64,000 nucleotides of DNA, taken from contig OZ038453.1 in assembly GCA_964036195.1 (NCBI GenBank), positions 10,493,469 through 10,557,468 on the forward strand, read 5' to 3'. Both the position numbers and the translations under genes were made by a program. Positions 596-53,600 of this stretch are shown here, in pieces. Every line of letters begins with the position of its first letter. Position 1 is the stretch's first letter. The notes below the pieces were generated by a model. The model was given only the letters and a program-made list of their open reading frames with translations. It searched no databases and had not been told where the DNA came from. This DNA is from Sphaerolaimus hirsutus (Eukaryota > Nematoda > Chromadorea > Monhysterida > Sphaerolaimidae).

Positions 596-1176
596 TGATG
601 TTTTTTTAAAACGTTTTTTAAAAACAACAAGGTTTTTTTTTAAAAAAACATGACGTCCGAAATGTTTAAAAAAAAAGATCGTCCAAAATTTTTAGTACTA
701 AGCACTAGGTATTTTGTAAAATTTTTGCGCGCAAGCGCACAATTTCACACACAAATTGACATTGGCGGTTGTTTTTATTGGTTTTGTGGCATTTTTAGTA
801 TCAAAGTATCCATTTCTATGTGGTACCATGGGTTAATAAGCCGTCATATGTTGCTGTAGTATATAATATTGAGGTAATGTGCTTCCAAACTTTACTTGAA
901 GTCACGAACATTTGACTATAAGGCGATATACGAATGATATGTGGACAAAAAATGGATATTTTTGACACAAATCACCACTTATAATGCTATCCCATGGCTC
1001 CACAGACATTATATGGTCATATATTACATCACAGAGTATTGCCACTGTCTGATATACCTATATATGTTGACACAAGGTCATATCTGGGAGCTTTTTAAAA
1101 AAAGCGTTTTTTATTATAAAAAACGTTTTTTTAATAAAAAACATCGAGTTAAAAAAACGTTTTTTTTCCAACCCTA
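596..1176. mobile_element. TAGGGTTGG-ended MITE (family G), copy 1
   Basis: Inverted ends TAGGGTTGG and CCAACCCTA enclose runs of AAAACGTTTTTT-type words at both sides and a unique centre. It is flanked by the exact 8-bp direct repeat TGTCCAAC (588-595 and 1177-1184). Sister copies are at 55931 and 58285. No coding capacity is seen. The 8-bp duplication is typical of hAT transposition. Confidence 0.85.
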
Positions 1177-1906
1177 TGTCCAACTCGTCCCGGTGTGGAA
1201 TACAGAAAAGATAATCTGGAATATTCGATCGATCAAGTTGATATTGTGATGCGCGGCTCCGATACGTACTTGGAACGGAATATTTCATTTTGTGTGTATA
1301 GGTTTACAACCTTTTGTAAGCACTATTCCATGCTGAACTTCATGTTAGGTCACTGATGTTTTACAAAAGCCGGTATATGTAATAAGTCGACATAAAAATG
1401 GATATTTTTGAAAGAAATCACTGCTTATAATGCCATCCCATGACTCCACGGTCACAATATGACCACAATAGACATAACAATACATTGTCTGACACTTCAC
1501 CTACACATTTTTCTTTATACCCCCATTTTGGACGATTTAAAAAAATAGGATTTTAATTTTTTTTAAATCAGTTTAAAAAAATCAGGCGTTTAAAAAAATT
1601 GATTTTTTTCCAACCCTATATACACCGATATTGTATTTTCATCGATCATTTTTGTAAATTTTGTAGGATATTTTTCATGGAGTTATTTTTTCGTCAGACT
1701 TTTTGAGGGGGAGTTATTCGAGGGGGGTCTTATTCGAGGATATACGCATGGTAGATATCAACAAGTCTGGGCCAGGGGTTTAGTAGGGGGGGGGGGGTTA
1801 CCCCCCCCCCCCCAGATCCGCCAGCTATCTATTCATCCCGGAGGCCCGCTCAGCTATATATCTATCCCGGAGGCCTGCTCAGCTATTTATCTATCTATCC
1901 CAGATG
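1177..1906. other. Non-coding stretch with repeat fragments
   Basis: No gene is seen. About 1540-1616 is a decayed relative of family G (AAATCAGTTTAAAA words ending in CCAACCCTA). 1677-1751 is a partial family-B end with GGGGGAGTTATTCGAGG. 1780-1905 carries a G/C-run palindrome and several TCTATCCCGGAGGC words. Confidence 0.5.
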
Positions 1907-2348
1907 CAAGGACGTATCCAGGGGGGGGGGCGGGGGGGGGGGCTGCAGCCCCCCCCCCTTCCCGGGGTGAGATCCAAAAAGTCCTGGAATAAGCATACTT
2001 TCCAATATATTTTCCGATGTTTCTTAAAAATTTTGCGCGCAGCGTGCAATTTCTTCCTCATGCATTGTATTTTCAACGGATGGGCCCCTGCGAACCAATA
2101 TCCTCGGAAATAAACACATTTTTTGTGAATTTTGCTGCATATGTATGCATTTTTACATACATATAAAGCGGCTCCTGGCGCTGGCGCCAACGCCAATAGC
2201 GCCGTGGCATGGCACCTTTGTATGGCGCTAGCGCCAAAACGCCGTCCCTATATAGGGAAAAATTTAGGGGGGGCCGAGCCCCCCCCCCCCATTCGCCGGC
2301 CCCGGTAAACAAGCAGCATCCCGCTCAAAAATCCTGGATAAGTCCCTG
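1907..2348 (+). mobile_element. MITE family A, copy 2 (diverged)
   Basis: It begins CAAGGACGTATCCAGG and ends CCTGGATAAGTCCCTG. It keeps the G/C-run palindromes, the TTTGCGCGC block and GGCGCC words of the family but is more diverged than the other copies. I could not see a matching 8-bp duplication here. Confidence 0.75.
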
Positions 2349-2357
2349 CCTGGAGGC

Positions 2358-2692
2358 AAAATTTTTGGCTATCTATCCCCTAAATCATCCGATTTTTAAG
2401 AAATTTTGGCCCAATGTTCACTCAAAATCGCTAGTTTTCGTACCTTTTTATAGTTTTTCACCTTCAAAATTCTAATTCACATTCCTTATTGCCTATTTTT
2501 AGCGATTTTTTTGTACAATATGTACTTATAGACCTATTTCTACCTTGGAAAAGCCTATATATTGAACCCCCGCCAACCCCCCCATCCTCCCCAACCCCTC
2601 CCCCCCAACCCCTCTCCCCCCAACCTCCACCCCAAATTTTTTTCAGCTATCTATCCCTCCGGAGGAGCGATTTACTATCTATATAAGCCCCC
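2358..2692 (-). repeat. CCTCCGGAGG-type dispersed repeat
   Basis: Contains CTATCTATCCCTCCGGAGG, runs of CCCCAACC and the words TCACTCAAAATCGCTAG. It resembles, in inverse orientation, 16963-17270, and parts of 27100-27480, 51620-51850 and 54760-54900. Coding potential is not supported; proline-rich frames here come from C-runs. Confidence 0.5.
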
Positions 2693-2884
2693 GCCAGGGT
2701 CCAAATCTACTAAAACCCTGGTCTGGGCTAACGTGAAAATCTAATGTATGCTTCCACCTCCACGCCCCCCCTCCCCATCGACTGAAGATAGTGGGTCTGA
2801 AATGGATACTGTATATCCTCAAATAAGTCCATGAGGAGTTATTTTTGTCATACTTTTTTTTTGGGGGGGGGTATTCGGAAGGGA

Positions 2885-3085
2885 CAGGGACGTATCCAGG
2901 ATTTTGGAACGGGGGGCTGCTTGTTTACGGAGCCCGGCAAACGCCCCCCCCCCTAAATTTTTACCTACATGGTGGCGGAATGACGTCATGGAACAGGCGC
3001 CATTCTTAGAAGCCACGCCATTGGCGTTGGCGCTGGCGCCAAAAATCGCTTATATGTATGTAAATATACATACACTCCGGGAAAA
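2885..3085 (-). mobile_element. MITE family A, truncated inverted copy
   Basis: Starts CAGGGACGTATCCAGG, then the G-run, TTGTTTACGGAGCCCGGC, GGCGCC words and the TATGTATGTAAATATACATAC block in reverse order relative to copy 1. The far terminus is missing. Confidence 0.7.
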
Positions 3086-3267
3086 ATGTCTTTATGTCCC
3101 TGGCCAGGAACAAAAAATCATTGTCTCCCCAATTAACATGCGACCCGTGTCGCGATATACATGGGATCATAGATTAAGGTGCCTTTATGCCACATGTCAA
3201 TTTTTAGCTTTCTTGGTGCTTTGCTGCTCGTTTGACGGCCATCCAAAGTCAAATTTCCGGTAGTAAG

Positions 3268-3953
3268 GCGCTCTACACAGTAGTTGACATTCGAATGTCA
3301 ACTGGTTGATGTCAACTCATATTTTAGTTTGTGTCACAGAGCGATCTTCAATTGCCGGTAGTGTTCAAACGGGATCCCGATCCCGATCCCGGATCCCGTG
3401 AAATTCCGGGATTTAGCAGTCCCGATCCCGATCCCGAAACTTTTCAAATCACGATCCCGATCCCGAGAAACTCCAAAGTCCGGGATCCCGATCCCGTAAA
3501 AATTTGTGGAAATTATCAAAAGTGAAAAAACGACGTTTTTGCATGCAAAAATGTGATCGCAAACCCCCAGCGTTCATTTTATGCCACGTTTCTGGCATCC
3601 AACATTTTTTTAGACCTTTATGAACAACTGGATGCCAAAACATTGGCCAAAATCTCTATCCCAAGACCCCAATCCCGATCCCGAAAAAATGCCAATCCCG
3701 ATCCCGATGCCGTGACCCCAATCCCGGCCAATCCAGATCCTGATCCCGATCCCGAAATCTCAAAAAACCAATCCCGATCCCGATCCCGATCCCGAAAAGT
3801 CAATCCCGTTTGAACCCTAATTACCGGTGCTGCAACGACGAACAATAAATCTAACAACATGTGCAATTGAAGATAGCTCTGTGACACGTGAACTAAAATA
3901 TGAGTTGACATCAACCAGTTGACATTCAAATGTCAACTACCGTGTGGAGCGCC
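3268..3953. mobile_element. Long-TIR element (family E), split by a nested insertion
   Basis: The two ends are inverted copies of each other for more than 60 bp (GGCGCTCTACACAGTAGTTG at the left; the right end reads CAACTACCGTGTGGAGCGCC). They include GTTGACATTCGAATGTCAAC palindromes. The middle is interrupted by the GATCCC element at 3359-3819. A related copy at 54308-54543 lacks that insertion. No protein is encoded. Confidence 0.75.
3359..3819. mobile_element. GATCCC-rich MITE (family F), copy 1
   Basis: Ends TAGTGTTCAAACGGGAT and ATCCCGTTTGAACCCTA surround arrays of GATCCC and a short unique core. The flanks ATTGCCGG (3351-3358) and ATTACCGG (3820-3827) form an 8-bp duplication with one mismatch. 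A second copy is at 59754. The Asp-Pro and Arg-Asp repeat frames are by-products of the hexamer. Confidence 0.8.
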
Positions 3954-3996
3954 TAAAAAGTCTTCGCCGTTTTTGTGAAAACATTCTAACAAAGAA

Positions 3997-4196
3997 NNNN
4001 NNNNNNNNNNNNNNNNNNNNNNNNNNNNNNNNNNNNNNNNNNNNNNNNNNNNNNNNNNNNNNNNNNNNNNNNNNNNNNNNNNNNNNNNNNNNNNNNNNNN
4101 NNNNNNNNNNNNNNNNNNNNNNNNNNNNNNNNNNNNNNNNNNNNNNNNNNNNNNNNNNNNNNNNNNNNNNNNNNNNNNNNNNNNNNNNNNNNNNNN
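3997..4196. other. Assembly gap (200 N)
   Basis: Exactly 200 consecutive N. It sits between the family-E element and the TTGACATTT array, which suggests that the array, or its unsequenced left part, blocked assembly. Confidence 0.99.
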
Positions 4197-4262
4197 GTTA
4201 TTGCAAATCAAGCAAATGTCAAATGTGGCACTGAGCAATACAATCTATAGTCAAGAAGAAGC

Positions 4263-5455
4263 CAAATACTAAGATTCAAAAGATTTTCAACATGACATTT
4301 AGAACCTGAAAGTTATCACTTGACATTTATGACTTGAATTTACCAACTTGACAATAACTTGACATAAACCACTTGACATTTATGACTGAATGGCATCACT
4401 TGATATGTATGACTTTACATGAACTGCTTGCCATTTTTTCACCTGATAGTTGTCACTTGACATAAACAACTTGACAGGTATCACCTGAAAATTGTTACTT
4501 GACATATTACTTGACATTTGACATGACATTTATCACTTGACATTAAAGTTGACATTTCACTTGAAATTTTTCACTTGACATTTAACTTGACATTTGACAT
4601 GACATTTATCACTTGACATTAAGCTTGACATTTAACTTGACATTTGACTTGACATCTCACTTTAAATTTGTTACTTGACATTTCATATGAAATTTATCAC
4701 TTGGCATTTGACTTGACATTTCAATTGAAAGTTATCACTTTATATTCACCTTGACATTTATCACTTGACATTTGACTTGAGTTGACTTTAGACTTGACAT
4801 TTATAACTTGACATTTGACTGGATATTTGATCACTTGACATTAAACTTTACATTTGACTTGACATTTCTCACTTGAAATTTGACTTGACATTTCTCACTT
4901 GAAATTTGACTTGACATATGACTTGATATTTGACTTGACATTTATGAGTTGACATTAAACTTAACATTTCACTTGAAATTTGTCACTTGACATTTGACTT
5001 GAAATTTGTCACTTGACATTTGACTTGACATTTCACTTGAAATTTATCACTTGACATTTATCACTTGACATCTATCACTTGACATTTATCACTTGACATT
5101 TCACTTGAAATCTACCACTTGACATTTATCACTTGATATTTGACTTGATATTTTATCACTTAATATTTTATCACTTGACATCTATCACTTGACATTTGGC
5201 CTGACATTTATTGCTTGACATTTATCACTTGACATTTCACTTGAAACTTACCACTTGACATTTATCACTTGATATTTGACTTGATATTTTATCACTTAAT
5301 AGTTTATCACTTGACATCTATCACTTGACATTTATCAGTTGACATTTGGCCTGCCATTTATTGCTTGACATTTATCACTTGACATTTGACTTGACATTTA
5401 TAACTTGACATTTGACTTGACATTAACCACTAGACATTTATGACCTGATAGTAAT
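4263..5455. repeat. Degenerate TTGACATTT / TATCACTTGACA tandem array
   Basis: About 1.2 kb of imperfect reiterations of TTGACATTT, alternating as CACTTGACATTTGACTTGACAT and TATCACTTGACATTTATCAC. Period varies between about 9 and 20 bases. The same word occurs in the ends of family E and D elements in this window, so the array may be an expanded element interior. No gene is seen. Confidence 0.9.
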
Positions 5456-6435
5456 CACCATGCAAGGTCACATGCTCAGTATCACATCAAGCAGTAGTTC
5501 AGGCATGTTTGCGCATTTTACACAAAATAAGCAAACTTGAATAACTTTTGTAAATCTGTACCAAAATTGCCAAAAATTGGCTCATTTGAAAGCTCTAGTC
5601 ATGGCGCACATCAACAAATTTTTTTTATTGCCGCATTTGTATTCAAATTTTGAATTTATTGAGGTTTGAAAATTTCAAACAGATACCGTCCCAAAGTGGG
5701 CGGAGCCTGTGAAAACAATTCCCGAAAATAAGAAATGGCATCATATGCTCTTTCATATGAGCCATCAACCATGAAAATCGGTCGTGTTTCAAGGAAGTTA
5801 TTGCAGTTTGAAGATTGTCGGGAGAACAAGATGAACAACAACAACAACAACAACAACAACACTGCCTAGAAAAGAAAATGTGTAATAACCTCCTCCCAAC
5901 TCAACCATTTGACTTGAAAATTTGCATGGGGGTACTTTTCGACACGGGCTATTCAATGGTATAATGGGTTTTGCCGTAGCTTGTCGCGTTCCGAAGTTAT
6001 TGCGATTTAAATTTTGCGATTTCCGCATTTTGGTGTGTCTGACCATATTATGGGTGGGTCGCTTGCGCCCTCCCTCGGCAGCGAGGGATGGCGCTGGCGC
6101 GCCCACCCGATAATCTGGGTAAATATGTGTTCACGTGAAAGTGTGTATTATTTGTCCCAGGAGCATACACGTTTTATTGCTTTATTCACTTTCTTACTCG
6201 CTTTTTATCACTTAATGCTTTGCTACTTGCCTGGTACCTATTTACACACGAAAATGTTAGCCGAATTTCACGTGCACTTCACTCTCCATTTTGTAAGTGC
6301 AAATAAAATGGCAAAAAATTACCTGGCATTGAATATGGTTTCGGTTTGGTCATGTTGTTTTTGGTCATTTTTAGTTTTGGTACCTGTGAATAATGTAGAA
6401 TCTTTACCATATTGTTCCCATGAATAATAGACAAA
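5456..6435. other. Non-coding stretch with a (CAA)n microsatellite
   Basis: A (CAA)n tract of about 9 units lies at 5835-5861. The flanking sequence (GGCGTTCCGAAGTTATTGCG, GGCGGAGCC) looks like a degraded repeat. No supported exon; open frames are short and unlike known proteins. Confidence 0.5.
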
Positions 6436-6668
6436 TACCGTATTTTGTATACCTAAAAAATTATCCGTTTAATAATATGATCAATTTGTTATGTCATTTT
6501 GCACAAAAATGGCATTTCATTTTGTGAATAAAGCATAATTGCGTAAAAAGAGTTGATGAAAACATGCTTGAAAATTTTGACAATATAATAACCCCCCTTA
6601 AATAGTTCCCCCACAAAAAACGTCTGACGAAAAATAATTCCGCAAGGGAATTATTCGAGCCATTACGG
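6436..6668. mobile_element. Family B inverted-repeat element, decayed copy
   Basis: Opens with ATACCGTATTTTG and closes near GAATTATTCGAGCCATTACGG. It shares the core with ATGATCAATTTGTTATG and AAAATGGCAT seen at 10337-10650 and 60848-61136. Non-coding. Confidence 0.55.
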
Positions 6669-6688
6669 TGCACTTAAGGGGTCGACAC

Positions 6689-7290
6689 TAGGGTGTCAAA
6701 AAAATTTTTTTACGGAAAACGGAAACGGAAACAGAAAAAATTTTTCAGCGGCCGGAAAACGGAACGGAAAACGGAAAAAATTTTGCACTTGGCGGAAAAC
6801 GGAAACGGAAACGGAAAAAAATTTTCAGCGGCCGGAAAACGGAAAAATCAAATTTACACGGAAATGGAAAAATTTGCTGAAATTTTGATGGAAGTGGAAA
6901 AAATTTGCAGTAATTTTGCTGGAAACATAAATTTTGTTTACATCATTGACAATCTGCATGAATTTTTGCAAGTTTGGCTGATCAGAAAACCGAAAGTTGA
7001 GCCAGAAAAAGGTAAAATGAGGCGGAAAAATGGAAAATTGAGGTGGAAGATGGAAAAAAGGCAGAAAAACTGGAAATTGAGGCGGAAAACAGAAAAAGGC
7101 GGAAATACTGAAAATTTAGCCGGAAAACGGAAAATGAGCCGGAAAAACGGAAACGGAAAAATATGTTGCCGGAAAACGGAACGGAAAACGGAAAAAAAAA
7201 TTCAGCAGCCGGAAAACGGAACGGAAAACGGAAAAAATTTGCCTGCAGAAAACGGAAACGGAAAACGGAAAACGGAAATTTGACACCCTA
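6689..7290. mobile_element. GGAAAACGGAAAC-array MITE (family H)
   Basis: Inverted ends TAGGGTGTCAAA and TTTGACACCCTA are flanked by the exact 8-bp duplication GTCGACAC (6681-6688 and 7291-7298). The interior is mostly reiterated GGAAAACGGAAAC with a short unique core near 6900-6990. The Lys/Glu/Asn-rich frame from 6693 is a by-product of the purine repeat. Confidence 0.85.
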
Positions 7291-7497
7291 GTCGACACAA
7301 AGTAATGTCATTAAAGAAAACCCGAACCGTGCTGGCATAAATAGATGCTTTTTTAAACTAAATTTTCTGTTTACGCCTTTTTTCAAATGTAAACAAAAGG
7401 CACCCAATTCAATGTGATTAAAAAGTACATGACCAATTATCGTTGTACATATTCAACGTAAGTCACAAGCAACGTATTTATATGTAAATACACAACT

Positions 7498-21054: not shown

Positions 21055-21495
21055 CAGGGCCGTATCCAGGGGGGGCGGGGGGGGGGGGGGCTGCACCCGC
21101 CCCCCTTCCCGGGGTGAGACCGGAAAGTGACCGGAAAATGCGATTTTTTCCAACGTCAGTTTAACAAATTTTGCGCGCAGGCGCGCATTTTTCCCCAGAG
21201 ATGAGATAATATCATCTGATTTGCTCCCTGTGGCCGCTAATCTTTATAAATACACTCAATGAGGTGCTTTTCCTGTATTTATATGTATATTTACATACAT
21301 ATACAGTGTTCAATGGCGTTGGCGCCAACGCCAATGACACCATGGCATGACGCCTACTAATGGCGCCAGCGCCATGGCACCATTCCTCCACTCTGTAGGT
21401 AAAATTTTAGGGGGGGGGGCTAACCCCCCCCCGTTCGCCGTCCTCCGTAAACAAGCAGCCCCCCCCGCTCAAAAATCCTGTATACCTACGTCCCT
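21055..21495 (+). mobile_element. MITE family A, copy with 8-bp duplication GATGAGAT
   Basis: Begins CAGGGCCGTATCCAGG and ends CCTGTATACCTACGTCCCTG. Immediate flanks on both sides read GATGAGAT. The interior matches other family-A copies. It is intergenic between the Patched-like gene and GK5. Confidence 0.88.
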
Positions 21496-23324
21496 GGATG
21501 AGATATGGTAGATTTTGACTATGGGTGCTGTTATAAATATAAATATTGGGATGCGGCAGGCACTAAATGTGGCAACATTTAAAATGGTAAAATATGTATG
21601 CACTTGACACGTAAAACGATAATCACAGACTCAATTAACGATTCAAATAATATAAAGATATGAATATAAATATATACCGAGGTGTTATAGTTGTAAGTTT
21701 TAAGTGAGGGATAGTCTAAGAAATGTTTTTGATAAATCTAGCAATGGAAAACAGTGATATGTGACACGAAAACAGTTGCATAAAAAATAAATACCGGAAA
21801 AAATAAATACTGGTAAAATGGGCACCAATGCGAGACTAAATCTGTAGAATGAAATTGAGCAAACCTGAAATTCTTTTCTAATCTATCCACAAAAATCAAT
21901 TAAAATCTCAAATATCAGCAGCAATGAGTTAGCCATGCCACTTTAAAGTGCGCTTAACCGCTTGCAGCCATTTACCATAATCCAGCTGAATCTGGATCAT
22001 TTTATCATGACCAAGTGGTTCAAAAACTCTGTCAATTTGATCATCGCAGATGTGTGCAATTTTGGAATCTTGCCAGAAATCTGTGGATGTTTATGTTCAA
22101 CTTTCAGGATTTATTTTGTGTTAACAATTTTTGTATGGCTGACCAGGTAACACAAAGGGTTTATTAACTACCAGAGTTCAGTTTTTATTCGTAAGGTTTG
22201 TAGTAACCTCGACCATGGTTGGTTTTAGTAAAATTCTTTTTACTAAAATTGTATTTTATTTTTATTAAAATTGTATTTTATTTTAATTTTATTCATGTTT
22301 CATTTTATTTTATTTTATTTTATTCTGAAATGTCATTAATAAAATAAAATGAAACCATTTTACAAAAATTTTACAAATATTTTACAAAAATTTTACAAAA
22401 AATCAGAATCTTGGATGCAAGGAAGTAAAACAATGTGCACGTTAGAAGCATGCAGATGAATACAAAAATTTTGACACGGTTGCGACATAGGTATACTCGG
22501 CGGACATCACAGTTAGTATGGGAACGTACAGTTATACAGTTTATACGTTGAACCAAGAATTGTACAGTTTTTTCGCCACAATATTTCGTTTGTACTATGG
22601 AATAATTAATTGCAAAATTTATCGCAAGTTTTTATTCGTTAAGTTATGGTACATAGTATTCTGCGCATACTTTGCGGTCCGCCGAGTATATCTTAAAATT
22701 TGACCGTCACAGGGGCCAGATAGATGTGTAGCCAATTGCTCCTCCCGTTGGAAAGATAGCAAAAAATTTGTTATTGGGGGGGGGGCTTGTGGCGTTCAAT
22801 ATTTCAATCACAACAATCAAAGCAACAACAAGGCACCAGTTCTGCAAATTTGCAGCTAGGATCTTGAGCAACAGGATAGAAAATTTTTTATACAATTTTA
22901 CAGACACTGGACTTTTTGTAAAATTTTACTAAAATTGTACAAAAATTTGAATTTTTGTACAATTTTACTAAAATTTTACAAAAATTCGAATTTTAGTAAA
23001 ATTGTATTTTTATTTTATTAATTTTCCATTTTATTTTATTTTATTTTATTCTTCAATTTTCCATTTTATTTTTATTTTATTTTTATTTTTTTCTGAGATT
23101 TTGCCAACCCTGACCTCGACACCTCTCTATTTTATTGACAGTCAAAGCGGTTTTGGGTGGTCGATAAGGGTCGATAGAAGTTTATGTTAACGTGGGATAA
23201 GAAAACGAATGCCAAAACAAACGCAGGATGAGAATTGGTTAATAAACAAAAATCAAAATACTTCAGATTTGAATTGAATTTAAAAATAAAAACAAATAAA
23301 ATAAAATAAAGAGATTGTATTAGG
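21496..23324. other. AT-rich intergenic stretch
   Basis: No exon supported. 22229-22400 and 22895-23100 are runs of TTTTATTTTATTTTA with ACTAAAATTTTACAAAA words. 22490-22694 is a short element with inverted ends TATACTCGGCGGAC and GTCCGCCGAGTATA. A missing terminal GK5 exon could lie here, but I could not identify one. Confidence 0.45.
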
Positions 23325-28766: not shown

Positions 28767-29895
28767 CGGGCTTCTGAGGTGAACTGGCGAGAGAGACCTC
28801 GTATGGGAACCTGGCAGCCGGCCAAAATTTCGTAATCACTACAAAACTATAATAGGCCAAGAAGCTAAAATAAGTGTATAACCACGTGTAATGACGAAAA
28901 ATAGCGATTATGGAGGTAGACCAAATGGAGCACATTTTAGCGATTTTTAGTAAAAACTAAGGAAATCGCTCATAGTACAATACGCAGCCGGTAACTTGGA
29001 CGTGGGCCAAATTCCCCTACCTGATCCGATACACCTTTTCTTTTTTTGCAAAAGTATTCCGATTTACTAGTATTGCCATTCCTTCGGACAGGTATTATAA
29101 GTTAAAAGATTTGGATATAACCGCATAAGAGTAGTGGGCAAACCTCAGCGCACTTATGATTTTTCGCAGCTGAATCAGTGTTCCTATTGCTTCACTATTG
29201 CAAAACTCTTCAAATAGACAACCTGTTAAGTTTAAGGTCAAGTTGAAGACGACAAGTAAATGGAGCAAGTTTTACCTTTTTCTTAAATTTGGCATCTGAC
29301 AGGTAGCAAGCTGCACTGCCGCATAACCCCTCGTTTTCTGTGGATGCTAAATTTACCAGTTATCGTTGTAAATAGTATTTTAGTAAATACACCCAACCAG
29401 TAAACATTTACAGAAGCCTATTAAACTCAACATAAAACTGAATGCACACTTGACAGTGAAATCTACCAAAAACTATCAGGAGCCTTGAACATTCGAAAAA
29501 GCGTTATGTATACTTGCCCACCCTGGCAAAGAGACGCCACATGCTTAGCTTGGGAACCTTTTGTTTTGCGTGTCCCACCGTAATAGAGCTTGGAATGGTT
29601 TATGAATGTGAACTTTTGACGTTTGTAAGTTGGGGGTCGGGACGGCACGAATCAAAGGGCTTTGTCGTTGCCTCATTCTTTGTTTGTATTTGCCGCATTG
29701 AGACAGCCGTCACGCTATATTGTGACATTTGACACTGCGTGACATTTTACATTTTACATGACGTTTAACACTTTGCATGAAATTTTACATGAGTATTGAC
29801 ACTTTGCATGAAATTTTACATGAGTTTTGTTTTGTTAAACATGATACCCTTGTTTTTTCACCTGCACTATCTGGTACCAACCACTGTTAACTACC
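28767..29895. other. Region upstream of GK5 and of the retroelement
   Basis: The first several hundred bases are the likely GK5 promoter side, but I see no clear core promoter motif. 29509-29570 forms the left arm of an imperfect inverted pair with 34010-34071 (see findings). 29728-29825 repeats GACACTTTGCATGAAATTTTACATGA words of the family D type. No exon supported. Confidence 0.45.
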
Positions 29896-32800
29896 TTGTT
29901 TTCTTCGGTCCCTTTTCTCATTCTGGTAGCAAAAATACCCTTTTACAGCATGGATCAAGTCGCCTTACAACACTCGTTTCATGCTAGGGCGTACCCCGTA
30001 AGCGACGGGCCGCCGGGTGTCCAGGACGGTGGTCATAATGCGACTGGACCAAGTTCACCTCACCATACTTCGCAGAACAGGTCTGTTGTTGGTGGTAGGC
30101 AGCCCTTTGCCTACCTTGTTAATTTGAACATGACCCAATTTGAGTTGAAAAGAGAGTACCAGGGGACCCCTACAAACAAATGTGGTCGAGCTAGCTGCCA
30201 GACTTGTCCACACCTATCACTTGAGGGCACCTTTCATTCGTCAGTAACCTTACAACGTTTTTTACCAATTTCAAACACTTTGCTTAACTGTAATACTAAA
30301 TGTGTAATATATTTATTGACTTGTGTCTGTGGATTTCAATATGTGGGTGAGACCAAACACAGTTTAAATAAGCGATTTATGCAACATCTAAATCACCTAA
30401 AAAAGAAAAGTTGCAATAATATACTTTATAAACATTTTTTGGATTGTGGTTGTGACATTTCGTTAATTAAAATCCAAATAATACACAAATTAGACAGTGT
30501 TATTAATAATAAAAAATCTGATGACTTCACTACTTATGAACTAAACTGGATTTCATATTTGTTTACTGCTTACCCATTTGGTTTAAATCAAAAAATTAAA
30601 GGCCTTGGACTTATCGATAAATTTGATCTGATCCATAGAAACAATGAACTCCCTTTTTTTAACAAAAAGCTTTTTCGTAAAAGGAGAAAACGACCACTAA
30701 AATATAATCCTAAACATTCTAATCTGTCACTAGATGCTATCGAAAATTTGTACTCCCCTAGAGACGTATACATTTTCATAAACAGTTTACCAAAAGCGGA
30801 TTTGGGGAAAGTTTTCTATTTATCACAATCTGCCAAAAACAGTAATTTAATTAGTAAAATTGTTTTTGATTGCCTTAGTTATGGTGCTGAATCAAAAAGG
30901 AGATCCTATTTCATACGAAAATCGAAACCCGAGAACCCAATCCTAATTCCGTGCAAATATGAACAGTTTTCGGATGATGTCATTTCACTAAATATATTAC
31001 ACAAGAACTCAGAAAAACAACATCTATCTGAGCGAATGAAAGGTTTCCTAGATAAATTACAACTTCGAGTGTCTTATCCATTACCGTTGGGATTGAAAAT
31101 CTGTAATTACAATAAGGTTTTAAAAAATCTGACCTTAGAAAAACTGAATACAATATTGACACAAAACTGCGATTGTCACTCCACACACTTTGTAGACAAG
31201 TTCCATGAGCATGTGGTTACCGGTGACACCAAAATATGTAAAAATAATAAATTGCGATATTTTTTAAACATGGGCACTAAATATCGCTTACCTAACCAAC
31301 GCAATACTGATTCTACAAAAGACAAATACATAAGAATTGTAAATTGGGTCACACAGTCACTACATGACATGGACACTGACTTATTTACCTCTGCAATTAA
31401 TAGATATAATATGCTCTGCCACAGAAAAATAAATTATAAACTTAAAACATTTCAGGTGGATGCTTCTAGGAATAGCCACCACGTATGGGACTACGAATGT
31501 GACACAGAGCTAGCAAATCTGCATGAAAAGTTAGTTATCACATGCATTGATAAGGCTTCTAATACATATGCCTTTATTTGTAAAAAGTTTTATTTACAGA
31601 CAATATGTAAAGAATTTGGTATGAGTGACTTGCAAAACGCAACTAGCTTTGGTAATTTTACATATAAATATGTGCAATTGAATCCTACTGATGTAAATGA
31701 TTTATTCGATAAACATGAAGAAATGTCCTTTTAAAAAAATACTGATAAAAAACGTTTCGATCGTATTTTTCCTATCATTTACGGCATTCCGAAATTCCAC
31801 AAATCCCCAATCAAATTTAGATTTATTGCAGGTGCTAAAAAGTCAAGCATAAACGGCTTGGCTTGGCACCTACACCTGATTTTGGTACTGCTACAAAAAT
31901 GTTTGAAAAACTACTGCAATAGAATTGTTGAGAATGGAGGTCCAAACAAATTTTGGATCGTTGAAAACAGCCAATCAGTGATAGAAAATCTATCGAAAAT
32001 CGATAAATTGGCGCATGTGTACACTGCTGATTTTTCTCAGGCGTACACTTCGTTAGATATTAGTGAAATAAAAAATCGACTTGCACAACTGGTGAATTTA
32101 CTTGTTAAAAATCACCACGTTGTTGTAGTCAATAAATTTAATGCCAAAATCAAAGCATCTTCAAACTTAGATAACACTGATAAGGTAATTTACAACAATA
32201 TACTAATTATTGAACTTTTACACTTCATTCTAGATAATACTTACACTTCATTCTAGATAATACTTATGTCAACTTTGCAGGCCTGACGTTCCAACAAATT
32301 CGTGGGATCACAATGGGCTCATCAGTGAGCCCCAAAATTTGCAACTTAACCCTCTCAATGATGGAATACGGATTTATCGGATCAGCCCCTTTTCAAATCA
32401 GATCAAAACTTTCGAGAAACGTGGTGAGATACATTGACGACACTTTAATTGTCAATTTTATAGATTTCGCGGACATAGCTAAGAATATTTATCATGAATC
32501 CTTGACATTAGACATAACCACTCTTCAAAATGGACAAAAAGCACATTTTTTAGACTTAGACATCTCTTTAAACCCCCATTTTAAAATCACAATCTACAAT
32601 AAAACTGATGATTATAAATTTAGAATAGTGAGTATGCCTCACATAACTTCATGTATAAAATCACAAGTATGCTACAATGTATTATACTCACAATGCATAC
32701 GATTTTGTAGAGTTAGTACAGAACTTGATGATGTCATTTCTCGTATACAAACCCTTTTGAAAATACTTCTAAAAAATGACTATAATCCATTTAAATTAAA

Positions 32801-32909
32801 GCGAACTTTCCAAAGCTTCACTTTAAAATACAGCAATGTATTGTTAAAATTTAATTTACAAACAAAAGATGATTTTGAACATCTTTTAAATAAAGTTTTC
32901 ACCTTTTAA
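29896..32909 (+). pseudogene. Penelope-like retroelement, N-terminal GIY-YIG plus reverse transcriptase (Naiad-like), defective
   Basis: One long frame runs 29896-32256, broken by a single in-frame TAA at 31732-31734; the rest follows in a second frame to 32909. Near the N terminus are a Cys cluster (NKCGRASCQTC) and the GIY-YIG nuclease signature IYLLTCVCGFQYVGET. The C-terminal half has reverse-transcriptase motifs: IYGIPKFHKSP, VYTADFSQAYTSLDI, MGSSVSPKICNL, the catalytic YIDDTL and KAHFLDLDIS. GIY-YIG ahead of the RT, with an upstream Cys motif, is the permuted layout reported for Naiad/Chlamys-type PLEs; most Penelope elements carry the nuclease at the C terminus. A 23-bp direct duplication near 32219-32264 causes the frame change. 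The methionine at 29950 is another possible start. No hammerhead ribozyme was recognised. Confidence 0.88.
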
Positions 32910-41600: not shown

Positions 41601-44600
41601 AATGAAATTTGATCTATATGAAAAAGACCAGAGAGAGAAAACAAATTAATGATATACATATTTAATATATTTTCTTATCATAGTGGAAAAACCTGGAGAA
41701 AATATAAATAAATATACAATTAATTTATATTTTCTGATATTTTAATTGGTATAAATGTCACCAAAATTTCAGTCCTAACCATGCGATGCTTCAGATTTAT
41801 TTATACCTTCATTTTTAGAAATTTTTTGAGATTATATTCATTATATTTTCTCAAACTAACCCATTTTTTCAATGCTATAGTCGGGGGTGCATACATACAG
41901 GGCGAGCGCACTGCAGAGCGGTCATAAGTGCCCACGGGCCGGTTTTACTTGCAGAGACGTCTCCGGCAGTTCACTACTACAGTACTGATTACTGACCCCT
42001 GAAATGTTGTTTTACTCCCAAAACAACCCCAACCCACCAAAAAAAAAACTAACAGGACTTGGCCTGGATGCTCTGAGAAACTGCAACAAATCACCCCCAT
42101 CCATCAATTCCAATACGAGCCATTGCGGGGGTTCATCTAGACACACACCGAGAAGTGCCACGATATTCGCGTGGTGGAAATTTCTGGAAGGTTATTGGGG
42201 GTAGGGTGGAATACGGTACGGTAAGTGTTGTATTTTACGGTCATGGGCCCACACACGCTAGTTGACATCGCAAAATCGCGTCAACTCAATGTCAAATAAT
42301 GAACACAAAAAGTTTGTAAAAAGCATCAAACTTAACAGAAACAATGAAAATAAAGTGTAATGATGTAAAATTAACTATGCTCTATCACATAGACAAGTTG
42401 AAATCACATAATTCACTAAAATTTAATTGACACGGATTCAGTTGACATCTAGCGTGTGTGGCGCCAATGGTACAGTATGGTGAATATTCAATTTTCTGGT
42501 AAACGGTACCGTACGTAAAGTTTCTAAAAATGCGATAAAATTATGGATGGCGGGTTTTTTTCAAAGGTTAAAAAAAACGTTTTTCTATCCCTAGGTTAAA
42601 TTTACGGTAAAGTTTCCAAATTACCGGTAATTTCTGCCACCCTTGGGAGTAGAGAGTGGAGATTTTATGTTGGAGTTGTATAAGTTCATTTAAAATTCAC
42701 TAAATTGAAACGCATACACGAATAAATTTTATCAAATTCTAAACCACGACCTAGACCTGTGAATACAAGCTTTACATTAATATAAAACTTCAGTGAAAAA
42801 TTACACCATGGAGCAAAAATGCTTAAATTCACACCAACCGAATATCACTAAAACATTTTTATATTTTAAAACATGCTCCCCAAAACTCACCTCATCATAA
42901 TAGCTTCCTTGAAAAACTTGATTCTATCCTGCACATTGGCACCATCCCTCAAAGTTTTCACAGCCACTTTCACAGACTTTCCAGATGTTTCACTGGGCAA
43001 ATTATAGGCCAAACCTTCGAAAACTTCTCCAAAGGCCCCCTGCCCTAGTTGACGGCTTATGCTGATACAGGAGCGATGGATGTGTGGTAGATCTGTGGGG
43101 ATTTTTGGGGACTTTTTCAATCAATTAGTTTGTGCCTGATTCGGTTGGCATCGTGCCAGTTAAAGTGTCAACTTTGGAGGATTTTCAATTTTTAGATTTC
43201 AGTTTCTGTAATCATAACTTAGGTAAGTTAAAACATTGAATTATTAAACAGTTTTTAACGTGTTGCATGATGATACTTGAAGATCAACTTTAAACGTTCT
43301 AGTTGTGACAATATTAACTTTTGAAAACACATTTTTCGTGGTGTTCCATTTTGGGTATCATAAAATCGCGTGAAATAGTATTAAATTCCGGATCAAACGA
43401 ATAATTTAAGGTTGTCATCACCTCTAATGAGCCTTAAACTAGCCTTAAATTACCCTAAATTAGCCTTACTTTGTAAATAAATATAACAATCTCACCAGAT
43501 TTCCCCATTCAAAAACGCACCATTTATTTCATTCTCAGCTACCAAATCCACGCCACCGGCCTCGGGATTGGTTCCATCGAAATTTTCATTTTCCATGCCC
43601 AAGTTTCTGTGCCACGCAGCCGCCCCGCTCAAGTTCGGCATCTGGCCCCCGGGCGTTGGCACGATGCCAATCATATCTCGTTGTGCTCGCGATTTAATCG
43701 ATGAGCGAAGTGGCTTTTTGTTGCGCTTTTTCTTTGCGTCCCGATCACGCACTGCGAAAAAGTACACGAATTCCGTACAAGTACGCGTAAAAATACCGTA
43801 TATACTCGAATAATCCCCCGGGGAATAATTTTGTCGTCAGACTTTTTGAGGGGTGGACAATTCGAGGGGGGATTATTCAGGGGGAGGAATTATTATTATC
43901 GTCAAATTTTTGAAGCATACTTCTAGTGATGGAGTGGCGCCATGGCGCTGGCGCCATTTAAGGGCGCCAAAGGGCGCCGCGCCATGGCGCCATTGGCGCT
44001 TGGCGCCCTTTTTCTGTGGCGCCCTTGGCGCCTGGCGCCCACATTCTGAAAGGCGCCATGGCGCCCTTGGCGCCCTTTTTCCGTGGCGCCCTTGGCGCCT
44101 GGCGCCCTGCTTTAGAAGGGCGCCAAAAAGGCGCCAGCAAGGTTTCATGGTGAGTGCTGTGTAAACGAAAAAAAAAAGAAAGCCGCATCCGTGGATGATC
44201 TAAATTTGTCAGAAAAATGGACGGAGTGGTGTGAGTGGGTGGAAATCTTTCGTCCAACGGTTCATCAGATCTGTCTGGCGGATCAGAAGACAGGAATGAT
44301 GGACCGTCTAACTTGCAAAATAATAAATAAATGGATTTAAATCGTTGCAATTAGGAAACATTGTTTGGAAAGGTCTATTTGTAATGAATGGATTGTTGTC
44401 AAATGACAATTTCCATTACGTTTGAATTCGTCATGTGGATTTTATTCAAAAATTTTTTGTTCCTAGCCTTGTTTTTTGTCATTACATCCTGGAGAACGCG
44501 AATTAAGATCTGAATGCGCGTATAATGGTGCTGGATAAACATTTTTAGCACACGCATGGTGTTGTAGGCACTTTTTTATCCTGGCGCCTGGCGCCCTATT

Positions 44601-47600
44601 TTCGAAATGGCGCCATGGCGCCCTTGGCGCTTGGCGCCCTCTTTCCGTGGCGCCCCTGGCGCCTGGCGCCCACTTTCTCAATGGCGCCATGGCGCCCTTG
44701 GCGCCTGGCGCCCCTTTTCTGTGGCGCCCCTGGCGCTTGGCGCCCACTTTCCGAATGGCGCCATGGCGCCCTTGGCGCCTGGCGCCATTTTTTCTGGCGC
44801 TTTTCCATCACTACATACTTCTATAAATTGATTTGATGAAATTTGCTTTATTTACTAAATAAGATGCAATTTTTGTTCAACAAAAAGAATTGTGCAAATT
44901 TATTTCAGGTGCCAGAGTTTTCAGGTTCCTACCTATTTCATGGGAGCGTGGTCAGGACTAGAAAATGCAACTGGGATTTGATTCGAATGTGAGCAGGTTC
45001 TTTTACCAGTGGTTTTGTTTTTTAAGTTTTAAGTGTCACTTTTTAAAGTTTTCACTTAAAAGTTTTAAAGCAGCGCATCGAGACTAATAAACCAGTCAAA
45101 CAATTAGTGTCAGAAGTAAACTGCAGCGGCCGCGAAATAAGAATTAAACAAAACCGACTCATAAAACAGTAAACTGCAGCAGCCGCGATCCCAATAAGCA
45201 GAATGGCCAGAAAAGCCAAAAGGACGATAAGCCACCCTGTGGATGACCCGTCGGCTGTAAAAAGGCGGGTTTAAATTTTTTAAGAACAATAATAATAAAA
45301 TTTGAAAAAATTACACTGAATTTCAGAATTGCATCCGATATCGCCACGGTATATTTGTAGATATATCTATTTGGTGACAGTACATTTTAAGCATATAAAT
45401 GTGTCTGATTAACACACTCCTATCTAAATACCAGAGAACTAAATCCACATGGAACTTTAAATTTTATGCGGAAACGTTTGTGTTCAGTTCGATAAAGTTT
45501 GGTTGAGGGGGAGTTTTTAACGAAAATGGTGACAAAATTTGATGGGGAGTGTTTTTAGGGAAAAATTACGTTGACATAGAACACAAAATTCTAACAAAAC
45601 TCCCTCAGCCCACAAAGCTGCCACTTTTCTTCGCGCAGTCAGTATCTTAACTTCTTCTAAATTTTTTACAAACAATCATTTCCACTCAAACTTCAAAATC
45701 AAAACTCCAACAAAATTTGCTCACCATACAAAACGGCCATTTTCCACTCCCCCAACCCCATGGCATTTTCGGCCGCGACGCGATACTCAAAAGTATCGTC
45801 CATTTCTATAATTTCTATACTGTAATCGGCTGAATTTTGCGGCTGGTTTTCTTGACCAGATGATTTCAGCTGTGCGGGGATTGTGTCGTAGCGTTTCCAG
45901 GGTTCGTCGGAAGACATTCTCCTGGAAAACAATTTTAAAATAGAGTTTTCAGTGACATTGAGTAAATTTGCAAGTACGCTGTGAATCTGTTATTTTTGGA
46001 AATCGGAAATTTCGGAAAGTCATTTTGGTCATTTTAAATTATTTTTTTGGAATGAGGATAGGGTAACACAATAATTTGCGACAGTTAAACATCAACGATA
46101 TGCCTTTGTGCTGCCTTTCACAAAAAAAACTTTTTTTGTAATCAGTTGAAAAAATCAAGTGCCATCTCTACTCTCACACAGCACATAAATACAATCATCG
46201 AGCTATCAAAATAAGCCCCCCCCGGGGGGGCGGCCAAAACATACGGTAGCTAACCAAAGTCAATACCAAAACAACCCCCCCCAACCCACCTTCTCTCGAT
46301 GACATACTGCAGCACGGGGGACCCCCCATCAGCCATTGGTGGCTGCCAGGTGAGCACCCAAATCCTTCGCTCATCCCCCGATGCTGTGTCCACGTTTGAG
46401 GACTTTGGTTCGAGTTTAACAGTTTCTGGGGGCCACGGGGCTGATGCTGAGTTAAGTTAAGTTAAGTTGGAAATTAGAGTGACTTGGTTTGAAGTTGGGA
46501 TTATTTTATAAAAATGATATTTGGGGAGATTGTTCAAGGGATATTTAGCGATATTGACGAAGTGTAATTTATTTATCTTATCTGGCTGAAATGGGGGAAT
46601 ATTTAAGCCTATATTTTCAACTCGATTTTTCAACAACATGCTGTAAATTTTTATACTCATTTGCACCATAAATTACCTACCGCTCGTGTTATCAGAAAAG
46701 TTAAAAAGGGACAGCCCAGCACCCTGTAAAAAGCATTTTAGGGTGTAATGGCCCCGCGCACACTGGTTTTCACACGAATTTTCGAAAACTCATAAATAAA
46801 CTTTGAACGTGTTTGAGTTTTCCACAATGAGTCATTTTTAATCTCCGCCAACTGTAGCTGACAGGCACCTCATTGTAGAAAACTCAAATGCGTTCTTAGC
46901 TGATTTATGAGTTTTCGAAATTTCGTGTGAAAACTAGTGTGTGCAGGCACAATATGACAGACAGATTGTCACTATCAGATTGTCACTATCATTTTATAAT
47001 GTCAAATATTTACCGGCAAAAATTTGACATTTTTGCCAGAAATCCCAACCAAAAATCACCATCTAAAGCAGGTTTTTCCTTCACTCACCTTCGGTGCTAG
47101 CCCTAATCTCCAGTCCATATTCATATCCCAGGTGGCCCACATTACCGGGTGTCCCATCGGTTTTGTAGCGAAAATTCAGGGTCACCGTGTATTCAGTTGC
47201 CGGGCGCAAATTTTCTATTGAGAAGTTCGCTTTTTGGTACAAATCCAGCGGCTTGGCAAGACGCGACTTTTTCGTCGGCAACAATGTTGGCGAGTACTGA
47301 AAAGAATTGGTTTTTGTACGTTAAGAAAAGAATGCTTCGATTTGATGTTTGAATTTTGTATTTTGTATTTTCAAAATAATAATAAATTTATAATGATTAT
47401 TATCATTGTTATATTTAGAAATAATAATTTTGTATTTTGAAAATATTCGGTCACCTATATGTCCCTTTATAATAACTGGGGTAAATTCCTAACCCTGTTA
47501 GTGACAAATTTGCAAAATTCCAAAATAACTGACAATGTAAATATTTGCGGACAGATTTGACTACCATATATCTACGTGGTCACCTCGCAGCGCAGTGTAT

Positions 47601-50600: not shown

Positions 50601-53600
50601 GATGGGTGGATCGATTTAATGCAAAAAAACTGTACCTGCACTTATTGACAACAAACACTCCCAAAGCTAATAAATCTGTTTTCAACGCAGTTGAGTTGAC
50701 AGCAGTCAGGGCCGTATCCAGGGGGGGGGGGCGGGGGGGGCTGCAGCCCCCCCCCCTCCCGGGGCGAGACCAGAAAGTGACCGGAAAATTCGACTTTTTC
50801 AACGTCAGCGTAAAAAATTTTGCGCGCAAGCGCGCATTCTTCACCAGACATAAGGTATTATCATCTGATTTGCTCCATGTGGCCGCAAATCATTGTAAAT
50901 ACACTCAATGTTGGGTTGTTTTGCTGTTTTGTATGTATATTTACATACTTATACAGCGTTCCATGGCGCTGACGCCAACGCCAATGGCGCCATGGCGTGG
51001 CGCCTACTAATGGCGCCAGCGCCATGGTGCCATTCCGCCACTATGTAGCTAAAATTTTAGGGGGGGGGGGCTGAGCCCCCCCCCCTCGCCGGCCTCCGTA
51101 AACAAGCAGCCCCCCCCGCTCAAAAATCCTGGATACGTCCCTGAAGATGCTTATGGAAAAACGTAACCACAAATTGATCAGGTAAGTGCTACCAGGTTCA
51201 CGGCAAGAAAATGTTAGGAAAATGTGAGATGAGAAAAATTCTTAATGTGTTGGTTCTCTATTCATATGGTATTATGGTAGACTTCACTGTAAAGCACGTG
51301 GTCAATAGTACAAGATATTAATTCCATGCAGCACGTTCAGGGACGTATCCAGGATTTTTGAGCGGGGGGCTGCATGTTTACGGAGGCCGGCGGGGGGGGG
51401 GGGGCTCAGCCATTAGTAGGCGCCACGCCATGGCGCCATTGTCGTTGGCGCCAGCGCCATGGAACGCTGTATATGTATGTAAATATACATACAAAACAGC
51501 AAAAAAGCACAACATTGAGTGTATTTATAACCATTAGTGGCCACCCGGGGCAGTGCACTATTACGCATGTAAACCCATCCCGCATGTTGACCCGGAACAC
51601 ATTTAATTATACCTGGCATGTTGAAAATAAGTAATAAATCACATGACCTAGTTATTTTGAAGGTGAAAATCTATAAGAAGTTTGAAAATTAGGGAAATTT
51701 CGTGAAAGTTAGGGTAAATTTGCTCAAAAGCGCTCCTGAGAGCTAGATAGCTAGGCAATTTGCGGGTGGGGGTGGTGTTCAGGGGAATGTAGCCAAAAAA
51801 ATTTGCGCCAGGGATAGATAGATAGCTGTGAGGTTTGGGGTGGTGTTACCCACCCCCCCTTTCTTACCCCTGCAGGCATAATGTGTCTATAATGGGTCTA
51901 CATGCGGAATGGGCTTTGATGCGGAATGGGCCCTAGCCGTCACGCGGAGCCAATCTGATGATAATAGGTCATGTCTGGTGAAGTATGCGCGCTTGCGCTC
52001 AAAAATGTTTAAGTTGACGTTGAAAAAGTCGCATTTTCTGGTCACTTTCTGGTCTCGCCCCGGGAAGGGGGGAGTTGCAGCCCCCCCCCCGCCCCTGGAT
52101 ACGGCCCTGAGCACGTTAAACCAGAAATTGACATACCTGAAAGGTATACTCGGTATCCGGTTCCAAAGCGACAACGGCAGTCCAGCAGAAGCCTTCATCA
52201 TTGCACACGACATTGGAATATGACGACAAAAGAAGTCTCAAAAGTGCAGCATCAGTTTGTGCCAGCTGGGGGTTGGATTGTTGCACAACCTGGAATTTTT
52301 TTTATTTTTTGGATACTAAGTTAAGTTTGTAAATAGATACTATTTAGGTTTGTGAAAGAAATTTGGGGAGTGTATATTTATGTAAACTTTTTGTCTAATT
52401 ATTCAGTTCTGTCATAATTATGATGCAATTAGTTTTAAACGTTTATTGTATACCTGCAGCGACATTTGCGCCTGGCACATACTTTATTATAATGGGGCCG
52501 TTCCATCACTATATATCCACACTGTAGTCGTTGTGGCTACTCAAACTGGTTGACTGAGCTGTCAACTGAAATCTTCGTTCTTTCAACAGATCTTGAATAG
52601 TACAGTTCTTGAATAACTACATCAATACTTAAGAAATTGGTCAACTAGAAATCCAAAAACAAAAATTCCAAAATTCAAACCTGATAAACGATCTGACTTT
52701 TGGCATAAATCCCATTCAACGCCAAATCATCGGGTTCATGCCATTCAATCAAAACACTGCCGGGGGTTAAATTGTGAATTTTGACTGATTTCGGCTCAGT
52801 GGGGTAACCAGTACCCCCGACCCACAGAGATGGCGCGCTTTTGTCTGGCAACGTGCCAAGGTTGTAGTAATTGGACCAGGTCACGTCGATTGAGTATCTG
52901 TGTGAAAAAGTGGAAAATGTGGCGCTATACACTCGTTTAAGGCTAGGGTTAAAACGATATCACTTTTCGATATCGATATTCGATATATTTTTTGAAACTC
53001 TATATCGATACGATATTTACCGTGCCTTTGAAAATATCGCATTTGCCGATGAGTATTTACCGTCACGTTCTTAACACCCGGCCAGTAATGTTTCGACATT
53101 TACTTAAAACTTGCTAAATTTGCACTGATGGACTTGTGCGACCGCTACAACCAAAAAGAATTTCAAATTTGGGTTCATAATGACACTGACTGGACCAATT
53201 GACAAAAGAAAAAAAAGAAAATAAACCAACTTTTTACCAATCTGCAAAAGTGGCCGTTCCAATATCCAGGGATTATCGTAGCTGCTATCAGTGACCAATA
53301 AATTGCCTGCCTGTTCAGGAATTCCGCCATTGTAAATGTAGTAATTGTACAGTGTTGGGGGTCTCAAAATCTTGTCACATTTGGCACCGTTCCAATTTCC
53401 AAACAAAGCACCGCCTTCTTTTGGGGGTGGTACATATACCTGAAAAACATCATGTGTAAATTTTCAGCTGTCAAACCGCGCCTAGTCGAGTTACAAGTAA
53501 AGTGGTAGGTAAAAAGGAAACAAACGTTACCGTATTACTTCGAATTATCCCCCCTCGAATTAAACCACCGCCCTCCTCAAATTTTGCTGGCGAAATAATA

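Follow-up and report, generated by a model that had tools for sequence, protein, structure and literature searches.

Why does a short stretch of nematode DNA hold several segments with nearly identical ends and quite different simple-sequence interiors? The stretch in question is a 64,000-nucleotide window of the Sphaerolaimus hirsutus genome (assembly GCA_964036195.1, contig OZ038453.1, positions 10,493,469 to 10,557,468 of the forward strand), and the segments have TAGGGT-type ends, are flanked by 8-bp duplications and are filled with repeats of a word that changes from one family of segments to the next. We find that the segments are transposons of the hAT superfamily, most of them non-coding miniature inverted-repeat transposable elements (MITEs). 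Their word-filled arms are probably subterminal repeats (STRs), forming a predicted docking strip for each family's own transposase. The arrays are best read in this way because, in four families (B, D, J and K), matching ends enclose transposase remnants that match the hAT profile PF05699, and the word array of the family adjoins the end.

Six elements of three families were read in the window, either directly or by a scan. All six had been named in an earlier note on this DNA as having TAGGGT-type ends and 8-bp duplications, and all six are real; the target-site duplication (TSD) is exact in four and has one mismatch in two. Family A is represented at 586-1176, 55931-56446 and 58285-58939, each on the plus strand, with the TSDs TGTCCAAC (at 578-585 and 1177-1184), GGCATGCA and ATGGCACT, respectively, each present twice. 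The first of these elements, for which the earlier note gave a start at 596 instead of the correct 586, has the terminal inverted repeat (TIR) TAGGGTTGG and AACGTTTT words in the subterminal regions on both sides. The family B element (6689-7290, plus strand; TSD GTCGACAC at 6681-6688 and 7291-7298) has the TIR TAGGGTGTCAAA, arms of 176 and 268 bp, and 31 CGGAAA words on the plus strand with none on the minus strand. Family C occurs at 3359-3819 on the minus strand, where the TIR is TAGGGTTCAAACGGGAT (the left end being TAGTGTT), CGGGAT words number 22 on the minus and 3 on the plus strand, a palindrome of the word, CGGGATCCCG, is present at the left end only, and the TSD is ATTGCCGG/ATTACCGG. 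A decayed C copy at 59754-60158 on the plus strand has 11 CGGGAT words on that strand, none on the other, and the TSD GCATGAAG/GCGTGAAG; its right end (...ACCTTA) was missed by the scan and found by eye. At 405-655 bp, non-coding and TIR-ended, the six are MITEs. Their words continue the inner part of the TIR, as the earlier note had noticed in saying that the interior repeats resemble the sub-terminal sequence.

Chance pairing of TAGGGT with ACCCTA was ruled out by offset controls in the window and on contig C1 and by controls of duplication length. When window ends 80-3000 bp apart were paired and one mismatch was allowed in the flank, 4 of 12 exact pairs had matching 8-bp flanks, compared with 0, 0, 0, 0, 0, 0 and 1 of 12 in seven offset controls. 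With one mismatch also allowed in the ends, a duplication flanked 6 of 338 pairs, compared with 1, 0, 0, 0, 0, 0 and 1 in the controls; among the six, the pair at 29985-30908, whose two ends are dissimilar, looks like a chance match. A sample of contig C1 (twenty evenly spaced 10-kb stretches, 200 kb, one mismatch allowed in ends and flank) gave 12 of 2,653 pairs with a duplication versus 0, 1, 1, 2 and 2 in five offset controls, and 7 of 31 pairs with exact ends versus 0 in each of the five. We also scanned the window and sample together (264 kb) without reference to TAGGGT, for 11-bp inverted ends with at most two mismatches and an exact flanking duplication. TAG/CAG-ended inverted-repeat pairs numbered 26 among the 89 matches with an 8-bp duplication and 0 among the matches with 6-, 7-, 9- and 10-bp duplications (179, 34, 17 and 21 matches). 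A genome pattern of two TAGGGT motifs spaced by 6 bases gave no information, with 172 and 199 matches versus 174 and 152 in controls; TAGGGTTGGCACTAGGGT was the commonest sequence among the matches listed for it. The ends are abundant in the genome (348 Mb, 762 contigs): the 37-bp C end has 5,550 matches with at most three mismatches and the 22-bp A end 5,600 with at most two, and the reversed pattern has 0 in both cases.

The 264-kb scan and later reading yielded about twelve more end/word types, subtypes among them: C' (CGGGAC), D (CGATAT(T)), E (CGAGTC), F (GGCGCC/AGCGCC), F' (GGCACCGG), J (TTTACG), K (TTCGAAAA) and A' (GCGCTTTT), as well as G, H, I and J'.

A profile search of the genome with PF05699 returned 28 places, 24 of which were read from at least one side. 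Seven of these adjoin B ends, four D, three J and five K ends, and five are without an assigned end. The E-values are 4.4e-18 for B, 1.3e-11 for D, 3.6e-13 for J and 6.2e-8 for K, and the PF05699 piece of B matches the Hermes transposase in PDB (E 2.5e-8). The two best places lie within B elements (L029 418-1628 and L030 413-1640) that have exact duplications and CGGAAA arrays on both flanks. B-type ends also adjoin the places in L033, L042, L046, L047 and L048, with exact duplications around the remnants in L055+L046 (GTTCTAAC) and L056+L048 (GCCACACC). D-type ends adjoin places in L036, L037 (two places) and L038; the duplications have one mismatch each (L053+L037, L054+L038), and in L036 the right end is present and a left end was not found in the upstream piece. 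Among copies of the J gene type, similarity stops at CAACTCTG (L032, L035) or CAACACTG (L039), and one remnant (L058+L032) is flanked by the exact duplication CATGGTGC. Similarity among copies of the K gene type stops at GCCATCGTTA (L040, L041, L043, L044), L049 has the identical end, and the remnant in L057+L041 is flanked by the exact duplication GCAGGAAG. The hAT-type TAG/CAG terminus is general except in K, whose TIR is TAACGATGG. Thus the hAT transposase with matching ends for which the earlier note had suggested looking is present as remnants in four families, and the one transposase family that it placed behind several word families corresponds to one superfamily, hAT. In L031, L034, L045 and L050 the hAT domain is present and ends were not found. 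In L051, the fifth place without an assigned end, a G element (TSD ATTGTGAC) sits inserted in a different hAT gene, so this locus links no transposase to G.

One of the two hAT target consensus types is nTnnnnAn. The target consensus over 42 duplications, with the profile symmetrised over strands, is GTYRYRAC, which is of this type; T at position 2 and A at position 7 occur together in 13 duplications, one or the other in 31, and nnnTAnnn in 1. The TIRs themselves contain a target-like site, and elements were found inserted there, at bases 5-12 in L006 (GTGTCAAC) and L055 (GTTCTAAC) and at bases 6-13 in L066 (TTCAAACG). Because these nested sites resemble the preferred target, terminal repeats may be insertion hot spots.

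The arms have the anatomy of a hAT subterminal region, in that a short motif is repeated within about 200 bp of both ends. D copies run in the order stop codon, about 200 bp, CGATAT array, TIR. The left and right arms of B measure 181-375 and 195-221 bp in four copies with transposase sequence, and 176-219 and 252-268 bp in three copies that lack it. As the arm lengths of the two groups compare, the arrays are not clearly larger in copies without transposase sequence, and since the arms are equally long in copies that have it, we regard the array as the usual hAT subterminal region in an extreme form.

In 28 of 30 elements, drawn from B, C, C', D, E, F, F', J, J' and K, both arms have the dominant word on one and the same strand. 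The 30 are not independent, as 11 C and 7 B copies are included; family by family, the rule is without exception in B, C, C', D, E, F', J and J'. Likewise, 10-mers common to both arms are more often direct than inverted in 23 of 23 elements, with a count of only 24 versus 18 in K. Thus the tips are repeated in inverted orientation and the arms, for the most part, in direct orientation. C, C' and D have a palindrome of the word (CGGGATCCCG, CGGGACCGCGGTCCCG and ACGATATATCGT, respectively) that begins at bp 11 or bp 12 and is confined to one end (10 of 11 C elements, the single C' element, 2 of 3 D elements), and the end that bears it is the one toward which plus-strand words point. Inner palindromes at other D ends arise because the D word is nearly palindromic. 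Palindromes that are not of the word occur near bp 10-26 of one end in B (A/T-only, 5 of 7) and J' (AAAATACCGGTATTTT), and F has palindromes at both ends in 2 of 3 copies.

Nine C sites, taken from the first 100 exact matches listed and all on the plus strand, were read for variation among copies. Seven have an exact 8-bp duplication, including all of those with a right end in reach; L059 and L065 have no right end within the 821 bp read. The earlier note had held that copies lacking the duplication would count against it, and none with both ends was seen. The core gap is exactly 178 bp in six of the seven copies with both ends, and L062 is a 214-bp internal deletion that keeps both ends. Six C copies are nearly identical (L061, L063, L064, L066, L067 and L013). 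Between any two of them there are 4-7 substitutions along with 0-6 indels; each indel measures exactly 6 bp, a single CGGGAT unit, and such changes go toward both more and fewer units. L060 differs by 26-30 substitutions and also by gaps of 29, 1 and 18-24 bp. An extra unit in the left-arm block after TTGGGGTT and its right-arm twin are jointly present or missing in all six close copies, which, with few related copies, is only suggestive of joint gain or loss. Pairs of B copies have 7- and 14-bp gaps within the words along with gaps of 1-3 bp, and the most diverged pair has gaps of 2-33 bp. Array length therefore varies within a family, as the earlier note had proposed to examine, and does so in whole-word steps of 6 bp in C and of 7 and 14 bp in B.

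We compared the occurrence of the words inside and outside the elements. The two window C elements hold 27 copies of GATCCCG and the rest of the window one; CGG(A)AAACGG-type words occur 17 times in the window B element, which holds 19 copies of AAACGG, and once elsewhere. The words of C, C', D and E are almost confined to elements, and the 0-3 outside matches per word rule out free microsatellites as their source. For B the count is 17 inside versus 22 outside delineated elements; the outside clusters in L011 and L023 are themselves B elements, and that in L027 is a B-like array for which no ends could be seen. The words of F, J' and A are widespread outside delineated elements. Inspection of eight outside-word stretches revealed family ends in L011, L023 (two stretches), a D remnant of the window and L024; L009 is decayed and C-like, L027 is the B-like array, and L018 contains no element. 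Arrays lying mostly outside such ends, which the earlier note had named as the damaging outcome, were thus not found for C, C', D and E, and the picture for B is mixed. GGCGCC words also occur within CAGGG-ended type H elements (window 63295-63367, 150-330 and 2160-2250), and the F word is therefore not exclusive to F.

Arms and cores do not always travel together. The core of A is shared with A' (L016) at 73-80% identity and with the C' composite L019 at 68-72%, rising to 85% over one 33-bp piece, and the arm words differ, being of AACGTT type in A, GCGCTT type in A' and GGGACC type in C'. L019 is not a certain case of a clean core swap, as there is an extra inner TIR near its positions 201-218 and a single copy was read. 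Two B elements, L001 (from about 1,512, reverse strand) and L023 6753-8700, were considered as transposase carriers; between their CGGAAA arrays the core is instead a piece of reverse transcriptase that is BEL/Pao-like by eye. This retroelement fragment appears to have been captured and moved as cargo. In L002, L003, L004 and L007 a C-derived CGATCCC array follows TAGGGTTGGCAC within another repeat unit of at least 1.8-2.2 kb, so arrays can also spread by a second vehicle.

The window holds further elements of these kinds. A family F element at 43924-44813 (890 bp, no strand assigned), absent from the earlier note's list, has the TIR TAGTGATGG and the TSD CATACTTC twice and is packed with GGCGCC words; it contains, and so explains, the tandem arrays at 43985-44125 and 44580-44800. 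The D remnant is a single end on the plus strand at 52944-53013 (end coordinate approximate), where TAGGGTTAAAACGATATC is followed by CGATAT words. Three CAGGG-ended elements, with no strand assigned and without a linked transposase, have their TSDs twice: type I at 1773-2720 (GTCTGGGC) and type H at 21055-21496 (GATGAGAT) and 51338-52109 (AGCACGTT). A family-A-like remnant with one end, terminating in CCAACCCTA, lies at about 1504-1620. A 1.1-kb tandem array of TTGACATTTATCAC-like units at 4293-5441 is outside every described element, and three neighbouring long reading frames at 29845-32909 resemble, by eye, a Penelope-type retroelement. Elsewhere in the genome (L028 1268-3324), a D element (2424-3193) is inserted in the GGCACCGG array of an F' element, with GGCACCGG as its target-site duplication.

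Subterminal repeats are known from several hAT elements. In Hermes of the house fly, BED domains bind short STRs. A quasi-palindromic STR1-STR2 occupies bp 11-27 of the left end (LE) and of that end only; counted from each tip, STR2-7 of the LE are all antisense and STR1-5 of the right end (RE) all sense, which we take to place them on a single strand of the element. Each end requires about 220 bp, an LE/LE element is inactive, and STR phasing is strict near the tip, while mutation of inner sites keeps about 70% of activity (PMC10368747). The elements described here resemble Hermes in their one-strand words, in the palindrome at one end near bp 11-27 (C, C' and D) and in the PF05699 match of B. 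They differ in that Hermes has 17 + 14 scattered AAG(T/C) sites, whereas the present elements have dense arrays of one longer word, variable in length and differing by family. In maize Ac/Ds, AAACGG hexamers repeated in the terminal 200 bp bind transposase, and non-autonomous Ds elements keep ends and repeats around foreign filler (PMC3260210). The words of family B include AAACGG; however, a change of word from family to family within one genome is not described for Ac/Ds in the part of that paper available to us. In the mosquito element Herves the short subterminal motif CGATTCAT suffices for transposase binding and four direct repeats are bound (PMC3143072), but this is a single element with few motif copies, unlike the dense arrays of many families seen here. 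Kat1 of Kluyveromyces, a domesticated hAT, has hexameric subterminal repeats, six between its ends (PMC4763223); it differs in repeat orientation, as far as its convention can be read, since the present words lie the same way on the element strand. Variable numbers of tandem repeats ride on a MITE in Xenopus (PMC9659126), and unit number varies in the same manner among the six close C copies. Coral CMITEs, related to piggyBac, have cores conserved between families and ends that differ (PMC2872659). A family-specific end word is described for neither of these in the portions available. The earlier note knew of no name for such a system; the arrays can be named hAT subterminal repeats, and repeats riding on MITEs had already been described in Xenopus. 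Features that are still unusual are how many families with different words coexist in one genome, the density of the arrays, their one-strand polarity with a one-sided palindrome and their whole-unit instability, a combination that was not found described in the titles or abstract openings listed from the one open-access library searched.

Each family consists of a short TIR, two arms, mostly of about 85-270 bp, of the family-specific word, and a core. We propose, as the most probable explanation, that the word is an STR bound by the BED zinc finger of the family's own transposase, the array serving as a dense docking strip. With the word on one strand in both arms, the left end differs from the right, and the palindrome marks one end in C, C' and D, as in Hermes; such end asymmetry may be needed for transposition. 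A TIR and an arm would be what a passenger core requires to be moved in trans. Whole words are gained and lost in the arrays. Both arms of an element have one word in common, and a process of homogenisation between arms may keep them so.

Several observations weigh against this proposal. The stretches read yielded remnants, with neither a complete transposase nor a BED domain among them, and no zf-BED search was made. In polarity, one arm of K is tied and F is mixed, with one copy of three departing from the rule, and the A word is itself palindromic. B, E, J and K have no word palindrome near the tip, and the words of G, H, I and J' contain no CG. The three window A elements hold just 9 copies of AAACGTTT versus 7 elsewhere in the window, and the F word ATGGCGCC is commoner outside delineated elements (77) than inside (34), which leaves the earlier note's second check mixed for F as for B. 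Because phasing in Hermes is strict and mutating inner sites costs little, long arrays of varying length need not be functional. A rival idea is that the segments are ordinary hAT MITEs with passenger microsatellites, repeats grown by slippage beside the ends and without a role in transposition. The whole-unit differences among close C copies, the 7- and 14-bp gaps of B pairs and the Xenopus precedent (PMC9659126) are in its favour, yet we consider it unlikely, given that the same word lies on one strand in both arms, that its palindrome is at one end only and at a fixed distance from the tip, that arms persist while cores differ, and that B arms reach equal lengths in the four copies with transposase sequence and in three others.

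The earlier note had instead proposed that a transposase amplifies sub-terminal words, so that arrays grow as a family spreads. Near-identical C copies do differ by whole CGGGAT units, and array length varies at a constant 178-bp core in six of seven C copies. Growth with spread was not borne out, however: arm size is bounded in all families read, non-coding B arms are not longer, and the changes are single units, both gains and losses. We regard this explanation as very improbable. The A, C, C', E and F ends have no adjoining PF05699 place among the 24 of 28 read, which also weighs against our proposal, and A, C, E and F might on this ground belong to another superfamily with 8-bp duplications and similar tips. 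We give this almost no credence: C is tied to D, which has a hAT transposase, by the 13-bp TIR start TAGGGTTCAAACG and the one-sided word palindrome; A is tied to C' by shared core sequence; and duplication length and target consensus are the same. We prefer the interpretation of the arms as subterminal repeats, which we consider likely.

A broader reading is that hAT families have radiated within one genome by fast turnover of the docking word while the TIR or the core was kept. C, C' and D share TAGGGTTCAAACG but have the words CGGGAT, CGGGAC and CGATAT, and A, A' and C' share a core but differ in their arms. The arrays might then act as an address code in which unit number tunes transposase capture, polarity distinguishes left from right, and the two arms are homogenised in direct orientation. 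We put this forward tentatively, as a possibility that we think somewhat less probable than its negation. If it is true, the families would provide a natural catalogue of the specificities of BED fingers.

These elements explain the origin of several simple-sequence tracts in the window. For Hermes there is detailed structural knowledge of how a hAT transposase discriminates its own ends from related ones and tells the left end from the right. In the S. hirsutus genome four transposase lineages each adjoin their own word array, and thousands of MITEs serve as replicates. Pairing the BED finger with the word in each lineage would give a direct test of BED-finger specificity, and with a series of near-identical copies that differ by whole units it becomes possible to ask if additional docking sites bring more offspring.

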